64,000 nucleotides of DNA from Jatrophihabitans cynanchi (GTDB lineage: Bacteria > Actinomycetota > Actinomycetes > Mycobacteriales > Jatrophihabitantaceae). Both the position numbers and the translations under genes were made by a program. The notes under the pieces were generated by a model, which searched no databases, was not told the origin of the DNA, and was given only the letters and a program-made list of their open reading frames with translations. The first letter of the stretch is position 1, and each line of letters starts with the position of its first letter. Location: the NCBI RefSeq assembly GCF_027247405.1, contig NZ_CP097463.1, positions 434,001 to 498,000 on the forward strand, written 5' to 3'. Below, one piece after another: positions 43,731-51,101 of this stretch.

Positions 43731-44986
43731 CACGCCGTCGGCCGGAAGCTCGGCAGCACCTGGACGAACAGCCGTTCGCACACCCCGGCGAGCTGCTCGA
43801 GCAGACCGCCCGGCGCGTACAACGCAGGCGTGTCGGCCACGTCGTCGAGCAGCAGCACGATGTCGCTGTAGGGCTCGGCGCCGGCCTCCGGGGCGACGTT
43901 GTAGGCATAGCGCAGGCCGGGGCCGTCAGCTGGGTCGTCGTGGGCCGGGAAGGTGAGCGCGGTGCGGATCGGGTAGCCGGGTTCGTCGATGGCGAGCACC
44001 GGCGAGCGCGTGGTCGACGAGACGCGCACGATGCGCCCCTCGTCGGCCCAGTCCGCCAGGCTTATCGCGACCAGGATCGGCGCGTGCATCAGCTCCTCGT
44101 ACCCCAGGACCAGTACCCGGTCCCCCTCGATCAGCTCCGCCAGCCGCGCGGCCACGGCACGGGCGGCGATCGAGGCCTGCCGCCGGTCCTCGTAGCGGAA
44201 CCCGTGCCGGGCGCCGTCGCGAACGCCGGCCGGCCACATCGACTCGACCAGCCGCACCTTCGCCCGCGGCGGCGCGGGCGGTGCCGGGTCGGGCTGCGCG
44301 GCGATCAGCGCGTCGGCACGCGCCACGACGTCCGGGGGAAGGTGCACCGTGCCGCCGGCCATGCGGACGGCCTGCAGTTCGATGCCGAGCGTGTCCGCGA
44401 AGGCGTGCATGGTGGCGATGTTGACGAACCCGCGCATGTCGAGGAAGCAGCCGATGACGTAGTGCCGCCGGGGCGCGATTCGCTGCAGGGCGTGGATCAT
44501 GTTCATGGCGGTTTGCCCGGTGCTCAGCTCGTCGTCGATCAGGACCAGCGCGCGGTCGGGGTCGAACAGCCTGCGGTCGTCCGGGTACAGCAGATGGCTG
44601 GTGGCGTGGCTGTGCTCCTCCAAGAAGTTACCGAACGGCGTGAGCTCACCAACGTGGCGGCGGGTGGTGTGCAGGTAGTCGACATCGAGCTCATCGGACA
44701 CCGCGGCACCGAGCGCCGTCGCCGTCTCGGCGAACCCGATCACCAGCGCCGCTTCGTCGCGCAGTACCGCTCGCACGCTGGTGCCCAGCTTCAGCGAGAG
44801 CCCGTACACGGTCCGCGGGTCGGCCGGGATGTGCTTGCCGAGAAAGTGGGACACCAGCAGGTGCGCCCGCTTCGGGTTGCGCCGCAGCGCCAGCCCGACC
44901 CACTCGGTGACGTCGACGCCCTCGATGCTGTCCAGCCGGATCCCGAGCCGATCGGCCAGCCACTGGCCGTCCCACACCGGGCTCAT
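43730..44986 (-). CDS. Phosphoribosyltransferase with C-terminal TRSP domain
   Basis: The 418-residue protein has an N-terminal PRTase fold with PRPP-loop motif LVLIDDELSTGQTAMNMIH and an N-terminal RNPKRAHLLVSHFLGKHIP. The C-terminal part carries VLGYEELMHAPILVA and SSTTRSPVLAIDEPGYPI, the TRSP motif for which the domain is named. It is predicted to form the glycosidic bond of a nucleoside-like product in Ter systems. ATGA overlaps at 44983-44986 couple it to the aldolase gene. Confidence 0.88.
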   Translation of the reverse strand: MSPVWDGQWLADRLGIRLDSIEGVDVTEWVGLALRRNPKRAHLLVSHFLGKHIPADPRTVYGLSLKLGTSVRAVLRDEAALVIGFAETATALGAAVSDELDVDYLHTTRRHVGELTPFGNFLEEHSHATSHLLYPDDRRLFDPDRALVLIDDELSTGQTAMNMIHALQRIAPRRHYVIGCFLDMRGFVNIATMHAFADTLGIELQAVRMAGGTVHLPPDVVARADALIAAQPDPAPPAPPRAKVRLVESMWPAGVRDGARHGFRYEDRRQASIAARAVAARLAELIEGDRVLVLGYEELMHAPILVAISLADWADEGRIVRVSSTTRSPVLAIDEPGYPIRTALTFPAHDDPADGPGLRYAYNVAPEAGAEPYSDIVLLLDDVADTPALYAPGGLLEQLAGVCERLFVQVLPSFRPTA

Positions 44987-46140
44987 TGCTGCAGGCTCGC
45001 ACCGAGCAGGTCGACGAAGGAGACCTCTTCCCGCGCGACGCCGAACGCGCGGGCGCGCACCATGGTGCGGCGCGCCCAGGCGGTGTGCGGCTTGCTCTCG
45101 TTCATCTTGTTCCGGTAGGCGGACGAGGCGACTCCCCCGCCGGCGGACGTCCCGAGCACGTCGGTCGCGTCCTGGAACTCCTCGTGGGTGACCACGGACA
45201 GCGCGTGTACCGCTGCGACGTGGCTCGGGTGGATGACGGTCTTGCCGGTGAGCCCGTTCGCCCGGTCGAGCGCGACCTCGCGGATCAGGCCGTCCAGGTC
45301 CTCGGCGATCAGCCGGGCGCGCAGGCGGCGCTCGTCGTGCTCGACGAAGGGCGACTCGCGCAGCTGCGGCTTGAACATCCGCTCCGAGCCGGTGAAGTAC
45401 TCCCACACCGGGCCGGTGACGACGTACCCGCCGCGCGCGCGACCGAACACGTTGACGATGTCGGCGATGACGTCGGCCACCACGCGAACGTCGTAGATCG
45501 TCAGGTCGCGGCTTCGGCGCAGCCCGTACGCGGCGGACAGGTCGGTGGCGCCGAGCCGGACCGCCAGGATGCGCTCGCGGTGCTTGTCGAGCAGTTGCCG
45601 CACCGCGTGCAGGGTCTGCGCCCGCGTCTCGGCGTGGATGATCGCGGCGGATTCCAGCACCGGCATCGCGAGCAGCCGGTGCCCGCAGCGCAGTTCGGCG
45701 TCGGCAAGGGCGTCGAGGAAGGCAGGCCCGGTCTCGTCGGAGAACTTCGGCAGCACGAACCCGGACAGCACTCCGACCGCGGGACCCAGCCCGTCGACGA
45801 TCATCGCGATCTGTTCCTGCCGGCGCACCCGGACGAACACCAGCGGGATCGCGCTGCCGTTCTCGGCCACCTGCCGCAGCTGCGTCAGGACGTTCCGCTC
45901 GGCCGCGGGCACGTCGGCGTCAGGGACGGCGTCCTCCAGGCACGCGACCACACTGACGACGCCCTCGCCGGCGCGGCGGGCGATGTCACGTGCCAGCGCC
46001 GGCCGGCTGGCCGGGCTGTACAGCGTGGCACCGAGCGCGACCGAGAGCAGCTCCAGGTCGGCGGAGGCGCTGAACGTCTCCGGCTCACGCAGGAACAACC
46101 GCTGCCGGTCGGCGGCGTCAAGAAAGTCGAAATGTCGCAT
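44983..46140 (-). CDS. HpcH/HpaI (CitE-like) aldolase of Ter cluster
   Basis: The 385-residue TIM-barrel enzyme has CLEDAVPDADV (metal-binding Glu/Asp), VFVRVRRQEQI, MPVLESAAIIHAETR and the C-terminal KTVIHPSHVAAVHAL. It is typical of the Ter-linked HpcH/HpaI group rather than citrate lyase itself. It begins the four-gene enzyme operon (aldolase, PRTase, StiP-like, HAD). The 57-base gap to the divergent terD-like pseudogene must contain promoters in both directions. Confidence 0.9.
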   Translation of the reverse strand: MRHFDFLDAADRQRLFLREPETFSASADLELLSVALGATLYSPASRPALARDIARRAGEGVVSVVACLEDAVPDADVPAAERNVLTQLRQVAENGSAIPLVFVRVRRQEQIAMIVDGLGPAVGVLSGFVLPKFSDETGPAFLDALADAELRCGHRLLAMPVLESAAIIHAETRAQTLHAVRQLLDKHRERILAVRLGATDLSAAYGLRRSRDLTIYDVRVVADVIADIVNVFGRARGGYVVTGPVWEYFTGSERMFKPQLRESPFVEHDERRLRARLIAEDLDGLIREVALDRANGLTGKTVIHPSHVAAVHALSVVTHEEFQDATDVLGTSAGGGVASSAYRNKMNESKPHTAWARRTMVRARAFGVAREEVSFVDLLGASLQQ

Positions 46141-46184
46141 CGGGCCTCATGCTTCCACGCCTGCGTGACAGGTTGTCGTTCTGG

Positions 46185-46190
46185 CAGGAT
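46185..46190 (+). promoter_or_regulatory. -10 element of the decayed terD copy
   Basis: CAGGAT ends six bases before ATG 46197. The same hexamer at the same spacing lies before the intact terD gene (47155-47160), showing that promoter and gene were duplicated together. Confidence 0.55.
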
Positions 46191-46196
46191 CCGTCC

Positions 46197-47134
46197 ATGA
46201 CGCAATGAGCATGGGCGCGAACGTCACGATCGATGCCTCCGCCCTTCGTGTCACGCTTAACTTCTCCGTCGGGCCGCAGGTTCCCGACGTCGACGCCTCC
46301 GCGCTGCTGCTCGGCCCGGACTGGCGGGTGGGAGGTGGACCTGCCCCAGGTGCCGCCGACGGTGGACCGGATCGTACTGGCAGCCTCGGCAACTGCGGGA
46401 ACATTCGGCCAGGTCTCCGGGCTGCGACTCGTCCTGGTGGATCGGGTGTCCGGTGCTGAGCTGGCCGGGTTGGCCGCCGACTTCGGCATCGACGTGGACG
46501 GCTCGGACCCGCAGACACCGGTATCGGCCGCCGTCCCGGACGCTCCGGCGCCGGTAGTCACGCCGCCACCGGCACCCGGTCCGGCCGCCGTGCCCTGCAC
46601 AGGCGAACCGCTCGCGTTGCGGCATCGGGAGCGGCGTCCGCTGGCCGCGCCGAACGGCGCGCCGCTGGCACGGCTGGTGGCCGTCGACCTGGACGCGTCG
46701 GTGGTCGCCTTCGACTCCGCGGGTAACGAGTTGGGCATCGTCTGGCAGCGGCACCTGAACGAGTTCTACGGTGCCTTGCAGCACACCGGCGACAGCCGCG
46801 AGGCACCGTCCAGGGCGACGCCGAGCGGATCCTGGTCGAGCTGCACCGGCTGCCCGAGCAGGTCGCCGCCCTGATGTTCACGCTGACCTCGTTCTCCGGG
46901 CAGTCGTTCACCGATCTGCGCAGCGCCTACTGCCGGTTCGTCGACGGCGACACGAACCTCGAGCTCGCCCGCTTCGAGCTGACCGACACCCAGCCCAGCA
47001 CGGCGGTGCTGCTGAGCATGCTCAAACGCCACGGGCCGCAGTGGTGGGAGGTGCGGACGATCGGCGAGTTCCACGACTTCCACGCGCCGAAGAAGCTGGT
47101 CCCCGCGGCAGCGCGCCACGTGCAGATGCCCTGA
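46197..47134 (+). pseudogene. Decayed two-domain TerD gene (tandem duplicate)
   Basis: Comparison with the intact neighbour at 47167-48477 shows a degraded copy. The leaderless ATG 46197 reaches a TGA after three codons because one base is lost; the old frame resumes at 46205. Near 46332 about 100 bases covering the FVFYN region are missing and the frame changes. A further in-frame loss removes the [14 protein letters not shown] region. The second TerD domain lacks its GLGWDP part, and near 46795 the GDNLTG motif breaks with a return to the first frame, in which the C-terminus (FTLTSFSGQSFTDLRSAYCR) is preserved. Several independent lesions make a sequencing error unlikely. Confidence 0.8.
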
Positions 47135-47154
47135 CCGCCGCAGAGTCCGTCTGA

Positions 47155-47160
47155 CAGGAT
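47155..47160 (+). promoter_or_regulatory. -10 element of the two-domain terD gene
   Basis: CAGGAT ends six bases before ATG 47167, with no Shine-Dalgarno. It is the twin of the element at 46185-46190 and implies leaderless transcription. Confidence 0.55.
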
Positions 47161-47166
47161 CGGGCC

Positions 47167-48477
47167 ATGACCCAGATGAGCAAGGGGAGCAACCTGCCGG
47201 TCACGCAGCGCGCTGTCCGGGCCACGCTGCAGTGGTCCGCCGGGCCGGGCGTGCCGGACGTCGATGCGTCCGCGCTGCTGCTGCAGGAGAACGGGAAGGT
47301 GGCCTCGGACGCCGATTTCGTCTTCTACAACCAGCCGCAGCACGCCAGTGGATCTGTCCGGCACGCCGGCAAGAGCCTCGGCGCGCAGGCCGCTGATGCG
47401 ATCGACATCGAGCTGGACCGGGTGCCGGCGTCCGTCGATCGGATCGTCCTCGCGGCGTCCGCCGACGGCGGCACCTTCGGCCAGGTGCCCGCGCTGCAAC
47501 TGGTGCTCGCCGACGGGTCCGGTGCCGAGATCGCGAGCTTCGCGATGAGCGCGGCGAACGAGGCCGCGTTCGTCGGCGGGGAGTTGTACCGCCGCGGCGG
47601 CAGCTGGAAGTTCCGCGCCGTCGGGCAGGGTTTCGACGCCGGATTGGCCGGTCTGGCGACCGAGTTCGGCATCACCGTCGACGATGCTCCGCCGGCCGCG
47701 ACACCTCCACCACCTCCTCCACTTCCTCCACCACCGCCTCCTCCGGCTCCCGGCTTCGTCCCGCCGCCGCCACCACCGGGCTACGTCCCGCCGCCACCGC
47801 CGCCTCCCCCACCTGGTTATGCACCGCCTGGTTACGCACCGCCTGGTTACGCACCGCCTGGTTACGCACCGCCGGCAGCATCTGCGGCCGGAACAGGCAA
47901 CCTCGACGCCGGCCGGGTGAGTCTGGTCAAGGCGCAGCGGGTCAGCCTGGTGAAGACCGGCGCCCCGCCGCTGGCGAAGGTGATCATGGGGCTCGGCTGG
48001 GATCCGGCGAAGGGCCGGCGCAACATCGACCTGGACGCGTCGTGCATCGCGTTCGACCAGCAGGGCAGCAAGCTGGAGATCGTCTGGTTCATGCACCTGC
48101 GCGACTTCGGCGGGGCGCTGCAGCACACCGGCGACAACCTGACCGGCCAGGGCGAGGGCGACGACGAGCAGATCCGGGTCGACCTGCTCGCCATGCCGCA
48201 GCAGGTGCACTCGCTGGTGTTCACGATCAACTCCTTCAGCGGGCAGAAGTTCACCGAGGTCGCTCGGGCGTTCTGCCGTCTTGTCGACGAAGCGACCGGC
48301 CAGGAGCTGGTGCGCTTCGACCTGTCCGAGTCGCAGCCGAAGACCGGCGTGCTGATGGCGATGCTGCGCCGGACCGGGCCGGCCACCTGGGAGATGCGGG
48401 CGATCGGCGAGTACCACGACGGGCGGACCGTGAAGAAGCTGGTGGATCCGGCCGCCGGGCATGCGGCTGCGCCGTGA
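47167..48477 (+). CDS. Two-domain TerD family protein with Pro-rich linker
   Basis: The 436-residue protein has an N-terminal TerD domain ([37 protein letters not shown]), a Pro/Tyr-rich linker of about 80 residues with PPGYA repeats, and a second TerD domain with the full calcium-site motifs ([29 protein letters not shown]). The first domain lacks the GDNLTG motif, so only the second is likely to bind calcium normally. TerD proteins are cytosolic calcium-binding stress proteins linked to tellurite and oxidative stress resistance. The stop overlaps the next gene (GTGA). Confidence 0.92.
47809..47868 (+). repeat. 15-bp tandem repeat (4 copies) in TerD linker
   Basis: The unit CCGCCTGGTTACGCA, encoding PPGYA, occurs at 47809-47823 (with changes), 47824-47838, 47839-47853 and 47854-47868; the last three are identical. 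Such recent identical copies point to ongoing slippage in the linker. Confidence 0.9.
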
Positions 48478-49457
48478 CGGATCTGCTTGCCGGGCCGCGC
48501 GGGCGCCGGTTGTGTTGGGCGGTGCTGGGTCTACCGGAAATCGGTCTGTTCGACGTGCCGCACGCCGACATCGAAGCCGCCGTGGACACGACGGTTCAGC
48601 GGTTGTCGGCCGCGGACGCCGCGATGGATGCGCGGTTGTTCGACGCACTGGGCCGAAGCGTGGACTTCGCGCGCTACTGGCAGGAGCCGGACGAGTGCGA
48701 CGAGGCAATCGCCGCTGAAACGGTACGCGAACTGCTGCGGCCGGTCGCTGACGCCGTGCTCGGCTGCCCGTTGACCGCGTGGTGGGCGACGCCGTTGTCC
48801 GGTCCGCAGCTGCACGTCGGGTTCGTCCTGGACGACCGGCCAACTGACCCGCCGCTCACCGGCGCGTCAGAGTCACTTCGCGACTGGCACGCTGAACAGA
48901 CCCGGCTGAACACGCGCTTCGGCAACCTGGATGCGGCGCACTGGGAGCGGACCAGCGGGACATGGTGGTCGGCGCCGTCGCATCCCGCGCGGTTGGTGAT
49001 CACGACGCGCATCCTTGAGCGCGGACCGGTGCGGTTGTCTCTCGTCGAGGACTCGCTCGGCTGGACGCGCGCGGTGTGCTCGCCGGTTTCGCCAGTGCGT
49101 GGGCCGAGGGCGTTCGAGATCGGTGGACCGGCCGACTGGGCCGACCTCGTCATGCGCTTTCCGCTCGACGTCAGCGAGTCGCGCGGACCGGACTGGTGGC
49201 GCGCGACCGGTCGGCGTGGCCGGTGGTCGATTCCGGACTGGCCGTCCGTGGCGGGTTCCTACGACGCGGTGCACCTGTCCGTGCTCGGTTACCTGACGAC
49301 GGCGGGGGCCGCGGTGCCGGTCGGCGACGCCGCGTCGGTGCTGGCCGGATGGTCCCCGGACGAGACGTACTGGCTCGCAGACGTATTGCAGCTCACCGGC
49401 TCGCCCGAGACCTGGTCCCGCGGTACCTCGGACACCCGCTGGCACCGAGTGGACTAG
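48474..49457 (+). CDS. Unknown protein coupled to TerD
   Basis: The 327-residue protein begins [19 protein letters not shown] at GTG 48474, overlapping the TerD stop by four bases. It is Trp-rich ([50 protein letters not shown]), acidic, and has no signal peptide or membrane helix. No family is recognised. Its strict coupling to terD suggests a role in the Ter response. Earlier in-frame extension lies inside terD and is not coding. Confidence 0.75.
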
Positions 49458-49503: not shown

Positions 49504-50811
49504 TTACGCGGCGCGCTCGCCTGCCGTCCCGCTGTCGCCATCCTCCGGCTCGGCGTTGCCGTCTGGAACGCACCTGTCGAGGGTGTGGTCAACGGGGTAG
49601 GTGGCCGGTGGGACGAGGTGGTGGTGTCCGGTGGGGTCGGTCCAGTCCATGGTGCCGTCGCGGCGCCTGTGCGCGTGCCAGCCGGCTTCGTGTTTGCAGT
49701 GGTGGTTACGAACGCAGAGCGGGGTCAGGTTCTCTTTGCTGGTGGTTCCGCCGTCGACCCACGCGGTGACATGATCCAGTTCGCAGGTGTCGGCGCGGCG
49801 GGTACAGCCCGGGAAGCGGCAGGTGCGGTCGCGGGCGATCACATAGTCGCGCAGCGCGACGGGTGGCCGGTAGGTGGTACGGCCGTAGTCGATCAGGTGG
49901 CCGAGGTCGTCGGTGACCAGGCGGCGCCAGGTGCCGCTGTGGTCGAACGCCAGGTGCAACGCCAAGCTGGCCGGGATGGGCCCGTAGCCGGTCAGTTCGG
50001 CGGGTTCGTGGTCGATGCCGAGCAGCGTGGACAGGGCGACGGTGACCTGTACCGCGGGACGTAGTGGGGCGGGCGTTCCGGTGCAGTGGGCGCATCGGCC
50101 GGCCAGGACGTCCCGCGCTAGCTGTCCGAGGGCGTCTGCCCGGCGTTGCGCCTTCGTCCGGTCATCGTCCGGCTGGGCGGCCTTTGCCTGCGCGGCGAGC
50201 TGATCGAGTGCAGCGTCCAGAGCCAATCCGTCGGGCGCCGGCAGCGTGCCGCCGACCCAGGTCATGCCGTCCTCGACCGGTTTGACCGCGACCCGACGCT
50301 CGGCCATCGCCGTCGCGCGGCGTTCTTCGCTGCCGCGGGAATCGTGCTTGAGGACCTCCCGTTTCACCTTCCGGCAGAAGCCGCTGTGCTCGCGGCGGGT
50401 CTGCATGTATTCCAGTACCGCCTCCTCAACTCTCCCGGCAGCAGCATCGCTGAGGGGCCGGAGTTGGTCGGTGAGTCGCCATGCCTGCCGCGAGCTGATC
50501 ACCCCTGCCTCCAGTGCCGCCAGGCTGTCCGGCAGCCGGTGCACCAGCTCGGTGGCCATGGCGACGCGGCCGCGCACCGCGCCCATCGACTCGCCGAGGG
50601 TGGCGCGGAGTTGCTCGAGGAAGTACTGCTTGTCCAACCCCGGCGTCAACTCTCCGGCAAAGGGGTCGTCGCTGATCGCGGTGATGATCCGCTGCTGCCG
50701 TGCCGAGAGCCGGGCCAGTTCACGTTCGGAGGCGATCAACGCATCCACCCGCTGCTCGGGTGTGAGCGAGCCCGGATCCAGGTCGTAGAGGGGAACAGGA
50801 GTAGCTGGCAT
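49504..50811 (-). CDS. DUF222-HNH endonuclease family protein
   Basis: The 435-residue protein has an N-terminal DUF222 region (LTPEQRVDALIASERELARLS, AVRGRVAMATELVHRLPDSL) and a C-terminal HNH nuclease motif (FPGCTRRADTCELDHVTAW, then ENLTPLCVRNHHCKHE with zinc Cys). This is the architecture of REP13E12 proteins of mycobacteria, a multicopy, repeat-associated family. ATG 50811 is preferred; the frame continues upstream through a repeat-rich non-coding region. It interrupts the Ter island between the TerD gene and the TerA-like gene, on the minus strand, and its upstream side carries three direct repeats. Confidence 0.9.
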   Translation of the reverse strand: MPATPVPLYDLDPGSLTPEQRVDALIASERELARLSARQQRIITAISDDPFAGELTPGLDKQYFLEQLRATLGESMGAVRGRVAMATELVHRLPDSLAALEAGVISSRQAWRLTDQLRPLSDAAAGRVEEAVLEYMQTRREHSGFCRKVKREVLKHDSRGSEERRATAMAERRVAVKPVEDGMTWVGGTLPAPDGLALDAALDQLAAQAKAAQPDDDRTKAQRRADALGQLARDVLAGRCAHCTGTPAPLRPAVQVTVALSTLLGIDHEPAELTGYGPIPASLALHLAFDHSGTWRRLVTDDLGHLIDYGRTTYRPPVALRDYVIARDRTCRFPGCTRRADTCELDHVTAWVDGGTTSKENLTPLCVRNHHCKHEAGWHAHRRRDGTMDWTDPTGHHHLVPPATYPVDHTLDRCVPDGNAEPEDGDSGTAGERAA

Positions 50812-51101
50812 GCCGGGCACGTTACGGCGAGGGTCTGACAGTTTTGCGAACGCGAATCGCCTTGTGCACAAAGGTGGTTCGCCCAGTCTGAGCGCGACTC
50901 GGCCGGTCGCCGTGACGCCCGGGCGGATGTGCGTTCGGAACGACAACTCCGACTCCCGGACGAGGCCGGGCGGGATAATAGCGAGCCGACCGACCGCAAT
51001 GTGGGTTACGAACGACAACGCCAATACCCGAGCGGTAGACGGCTGGCGTGGCACCGTCTGTCACCGTGTGCATTCGGAACGACAACGCCGAGTGGCGCGT
51101 C
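50812..51101. other. Non-coding region with direct repeats upstream of the DUF222-HNH gene
   Basis: This 290-base gap carries three copies of a 24-bp repeat (see separate entry). No promoter pair was recognised. Short open frames exist on both strands but have no RBS or typical codon pattern. Confidence 0.5.
50929..51091. repeat. Three 24-bp direct repeats, about 70-bp period
   Basis: Copies lie at 50929-50952, 51001-51024 and 51068-51091. All contain CGAACGACAAC or GGAACGACAAC preceded by GTGNNTT (for example GTGCGTTCGGAACGACAAC) and end in CC(A/G)A. Start-to-start distances are 72 and 67 bases. They resemble remnants of a small repeated element or an array of protein-binding sites next to the DUF222-HNH gene. 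Confidence 0.8.

Follow-up and report, generated by a model that had tools for sequence, protein, structure and literature searches.

A probable pseudogene of an old terD paralogue beside an intact two-domain terD gene in Jatrophihabitans cynanchi

Directly upstream of an intact two-domain TerD gene (47167-48477), a stress-response gene of the tellurite-resistance family, in the soil-type actinobacterium Jatrophihabitans cynanchi lies a second, broken copy of terD (46197-47134). This copy is very probably a pseudogene of an old paralogue, here termed copy 1, that was broken later in this lineage, copy 2 remaining intact (Table 1). All positions refer to the window, the whole stretch of 64,000 nucleotides that was analysed. 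The initial annotation had described a duplication followed by loss at this locus and had called the duplication recent; as discussed below, duplication and decay both stand and the recency does not. Searches of the literature returned no title naming this locus, which does not imply its absence from print.

By blastn (E 9e-49 to 2e-5) the broken copy aligns with the region of the intact gene along four collinear stretches that are 71-76% identical in DNA, and the sequence, its repeats and a pairwise comparison together confirm that a degenerate terD copy stands ahead of the intact gene. The frame that opens at ATG 46197 is closed after three codons by a stop at 46206-46208, in agreement with the frameshift at codon 3 proposed earlier. 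With frames counted from 46185, the homology runs in frame 3 (46205-46330), then in frame 1 (46332-46799), and then in frame 3 once more (46802-47131), with changes of frame near 46203, 46331, and 46800. Two of these three changes had been recognized from the outset and hold; the other, at the first large deletion, had been missed. Deletions affecting both domains had also been claimed and were found: relative to the intact protein, domain 1 is without residues 43-78 and 122-159 (36 and 38 residues), and domain 2 is without 12 residues immediately ahead of the DLDAS motif. The homologous frame is thus interrupted in the manner of a pseudogene, by an early stop, three frame changes and three lost blocks.

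Table 1. Features of the broken terD copy and its surroundings, in window coordinates
Feature	Position	Strand	Evidence
Probable two-domain terD pseudogene, copy 1 orthologue by C domain	46197..47134	+	sequence, Pfam, alignment, C-domain tree
Piece 1: N-terminal TerD domain, start portion	46205..46330	+	pairwise comparison
Piece 2: N-domain remainder and short linker, then C domain up to its midpoint	46332..46799	+	Pfam, pairwise comparison
Piece 3: second half of C-terminal TerD domain, includes open frame 46874-47134	46802..47134	+	Pfam, pairwise comparison
Intact TerD gene of copy 2 type; 436 aa, two domains joined by a proline-rich linker	47167..48477	+	Pfam, C-domain tree
C-C bond lyase (PF15617), divergent neighbour	44983..46140	-	Pfam
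56-bp divergent region between C-C lyase gene and broken terD copy	46141..46196	.	sequence
CAGGAT, -10-like hexamer of leaderless-type start, broken copy, 6 nt ahead of ATG 46197	46185..46190	+	
CAGGAT, -10-like hexamer of intact gene, 6 nt ahead of ATG 47167	47155..47160	+	

With 294.9 bits over two stretches, the intact gene is a complete two-domain representative of the TerD family (PF02342). Parts of the broken copy also match this profile, but neither domain can be encoded there in full. At a cut-off of 25.3 bits, open frame 46233-46871 reaches 26.0 bits and the 86-aa open frame 46874-47134 reaches 35.3 bits, while a profile search with open frame 46205-46459 gave no match. The open frames of the broken copy cover positions 92-141 and 117-174 of the 187 in the profile, and a full-length domain is absent. 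A search of the complete genome with the same profile yielded 6 matches, all of them inside the window, and no further copy elsewhere, so that no intact copy 1 is seen elsewhere in the genome.

Sequencing or assembly errors in an intact copy 1 are a very improbable source of the breaks: two of the changes of frame (those near 46203 and 46800) occur without codon loss visible in the alignment and the codon signature is kept, as errors would allow, but base-level errors do not produce the loss of three multi-codon blocks, and the genome is a single contig with 99.67% completeness. Equally improbable is continued use of the pieces, in which fragment 46874-47134 or a frameshifted product would be translated and would retain a reduced TerD-like role. 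The fragment does match the TerD profile, its frame is open with G+C-rich third positions, and the promoter signal is kept. However, in the alignment ATG 46874 lands midway in a conserved stretch of the domain, and five intact copy-1 C domains read the same part inside one longer frame, making such use most doubtful. Translation from ATG 46197 would halt after three codons, and a start at ATG 46205 would yield only 84 residues, the tail of which is aberrant; the broken copy presumably lacks function.

The age of the duplication was judged from protein identities and domain trees. Where alignment columns are retained, protein identity between the two copies of the window is 50% in the C domain and 62% in the N domain, whereas the broken copy and copy 1 of G013, a member of another genus (G-numbers denote genomes of the family set), share 59% and 65%, respectively; the broken copy is therefore closer to a gene in another genus than to its own neighbour. 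In a C-domain tree of 13 rows the broken copy and the full set of five copy-1 rows form one group, with support 100/98. A sister pairing with the intact gene of the window is worse by 40.6 log units (AU p 0.00015); placement among the copy-2 rows, which do not themselves appear as one clade, is worse by 21.9 log units (AU p 0.00925). For the C-terminal part, then, the tree places the duplication before the split of the genera that bear copy 1. Summed tblastn scores on the broken DNA, in which incomplete rows score lower from missing length, are 301.8, 288.5, and 284.2 bits for the copy-1 proteins of G013, G016, and G009, 279.2 and 274.8 bits for the copy-2 proteins of G003 and G012, and 237.4 bits for the intact protein of the window.

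The reading offered initially, that the intact gene was recently duplicated in tandem and one copy then decayed rapidly, draws on the head-to-tail arrangement of the copies and on their common hexamer at identical spacing. It also finds some room in the N-domain tree (15 rows), which decides little: one of 12 inner branches is starred, a sister grouping of the window copies is not rejected (AU p 0.078), and the N domains may have undergone conversion. Recent tandem duplicates are each other's closest relatives, and for the C domain of these copies that relationship is rejected; with identities of just 50-62% as well, a recent origin was not borne out and appears highly unlikely. The shared promoter signal offers it no help, as the following comparison makes clear.

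Within the window, CAGGAT-N6-ATG has two occurrences on the + strand, exactly at the two terD starts, and none on the - strand, so the observation of an identical hexamer and spacing at both copies was correct. A leaderless-type start, also proposed at that stage, is supported by the sequence, the -10-like hexamer beginning 12 nt ahead of the ATG. A study of bacterial leaderless genes reports a -10-like hexamer about 12 bp before the start codon with the consensus TANNNT (PMC3160421); the distance is alike, whereas the hexamer here is CAGGAT. The signal is widespread among the relatives: CANNAT followed by 6-8 nt and a start codon precedes 15 of the 16 terD starts examined, both window starts included, the sole exception being the copy-2 gene of G003. 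Among the ATG and GTG codons of the window the same pattern precedes 22 of 3496, a background in which the two terD starts are also counted. The longer TGNCANNAT form is found at 12 of the 16 terD starts versus 3 of the 3496 window ATG/GTG codons, again with both window starts counted in the background. Across the whole genome, CTGRCASSAT-N6-8-RTG has 15 matches versus 3 in a reversed control, so the start signal is not unique to terD. Since hexamer and spacing are common across the family, the shared promoter cannot date the duplication; on the sequence evidence, the motif is a family-wide signal and uninformative about any recent event.

The damage itself appears to have a different age. The retained pieces have no internal stop, and G+C at third codon positions is 0.85 in the N part and 0.95 in the C part. 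The broken copy departs from invariant columns at 3 of 23 positions (N) and 5 of 37 (C), compared with 0-2 of 23-25 and 0-6 of 37-43 when intact rows are left out singly. Dividing the changes at first plus second codon positions by those at third positions gives 0.62-0.99 for its C domain (11 comparisons) versus 0.43-0.89 for the intact pairs printed, and 0.36-0.73 for its N domain (13 comparisons) versus 0.24-0.66. Invariant columns, and likewise first and second codon positions, have thus changed mildly more than in intact rows, with the codon signature largely kept. As a clock of decay the codon-position comparison was set aside, its answer being qualitative and without a date. The pattern fits a long period under constraint and then a shorter spell without it, and the breakage looks young relative to the duplication. 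With copies that parted long ago and only the breakage looking young, the locus would be a case of ordinary gene loss.

The relatives give further indications of how the locus arose. The family set comprises 24 genomes including that of J. cynanchi, many of the assemblies being incomplete, and a second genome of the source genus is absent from the genomes searched. The lyase gene was found in 16, thus in 15 others. In three of these 15 (G009, G013, and G016) an intact orthologue, a two-domain copy 1 with a long linker, stands at the same place beside the lyase. These genes share place, orientation, promoter motif, C-domain clade, and the motif DTQPSTAV with the broken copy; they are intact, with about 140-230 residues between the domain segments, whereas the copy here is broken and shortened. 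In G007 the N-terminal part of copy 1 stands beside the lyase and runs to the contig end. The search for the lyase in G012 gave no match, but one contig of that genome carries a copy-1 gene truncated where the contig ends, a gene that we take to be a methyltransferase, and a copy-2 gene, and the presence of both copies together supports the old-paralogue reading. The divergent spacer between lyase and terD measures 51-161 bp in the seven relatives measured.

That said, many of these genomes lack copy 1 next to the lyase. In 7 of the 15 (G001, G008, G011, G014, G015, G017, and G022) the search showed no two-domain TerD at that place; G015 and G017 have a copy-2 gene on another contig. A copy-2-type gene occupies the place in G019. 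In G004 a TerD fusion stands there, with two copy-1 parts at the ends of two other contigs. Adjacency to the lyase was accordingly dropped as the sole marker of copy 1, given the copy-2-type C domain in G019 and the different TerD fusion in G004. The violations of invariant columns in the broken copy, being raised only mildly over the intact rows, are a further counterpoint, as are the tblastn sums of the two copy-2 proteins (G003 and G012), which likewise exceed that of the window's intact protein.

G003 and G010 have an N-only terD gene beside the lyase, followed in G003 by the copy-2 gene. These genes (L031 5461-6192 in G003 and L043 10803-11555 in G010) represent two genera and encode an N-terminal TerD domain plus a proline linker. 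They resemble the broken copy in their place and in missing the C-terminal TerD domain; they differ from it in their open frames and their intact N domain and linker, both proteins ending in PWPPR. They are possibly a functional, conserved short form, judging from their sequences, and the N-domain tree places their domains in neither copy 1 nor copy 2. A similar N-terminal TerD domain and proline linker also occur with other C-terminal parts in L042 (G004, - strand from 9161), where that part is presumably vWA-like, and in L040 5126-6241 (G017), a fusion protein with a relative in G015.

Several features of the surrounding window were recorded as well. The gene order resembles what we take to be a Ter-associated set (terD, terC, HAD phosphatase, phosphoribosyltransferase, C-C lyase, and ATP-grasp); there is nothing new in the set itself, the members tested here by profile being the lyase and the TerD genes. 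The linker of the intact gene contains in-frame 15-base repeats (PPGYA, 47794-47883), a tract that is likely a place for length variation. Open frame 48474-49457 begins inside the last 4 bases of the intact terD, overlapping its stop, and has no Pfam match at E 0.001. It was rejected as a terD partner, having relatives in 7 other genomes among the 61 searched, on contigs apart from the fetched ter loci. A GGAACGACAAC-type repeat is present in three spaced copies (50927-50958, 50999-51030, and 51066-51097, with starts 72 and 67 bases apart). They lie around the 5' end of frame 49504-51054, the longest on the - strand and presumably a DUF222/HNH-type gene. The whole genome holds the 3 window matches to this pattern and 3 others, all at 2 mismatches, versus 1 in a reversed control.

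A simple course of events would account for the old paralogue and its later breakage. An ancestor within the family would have possessed a pair of two-domain TerD genes, namely copy 1, located next to the divergent lyase, and copy 2. In the present lineage copy 1 would have been broken by small frameshifts and in-gene deletions, the order and mechanism of which we can only infer, while copy 2 remained intact and presumably fulfils what is left of the two-domain TerD role. Copy 1 has kept its promoter signal, which lies no more than 56 bp from the start of the lyase gene and may persist by virtue of shared promoter space.

The lyase-adjacent terD has a C-terminal TerD domain that is broken or absent in G000, G003, and G010, which belong to three genera. 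This raises the idea, which we consider unlikely, the more so as the N-domain tree does not assign the G003 and G010 genes to copy 1, that the gene has been trimmed repeatedly in the family with its start region kept, the promoter or N-terminal part perhaps being selected. If that were true, the selected part might be, for example, a shared divergent promoter setting lyase expression. The significance of the locus reaches little past the locus itself, with the CTGGCACGAT-N6-ATG start type ahead of these terD genes offering a small aid to annotation. A damaged copy adjoining an intact one does not by itself show that the duplication was recent, nor can a promoter signal common to both copies serve to date it when the whole family has the same signal.
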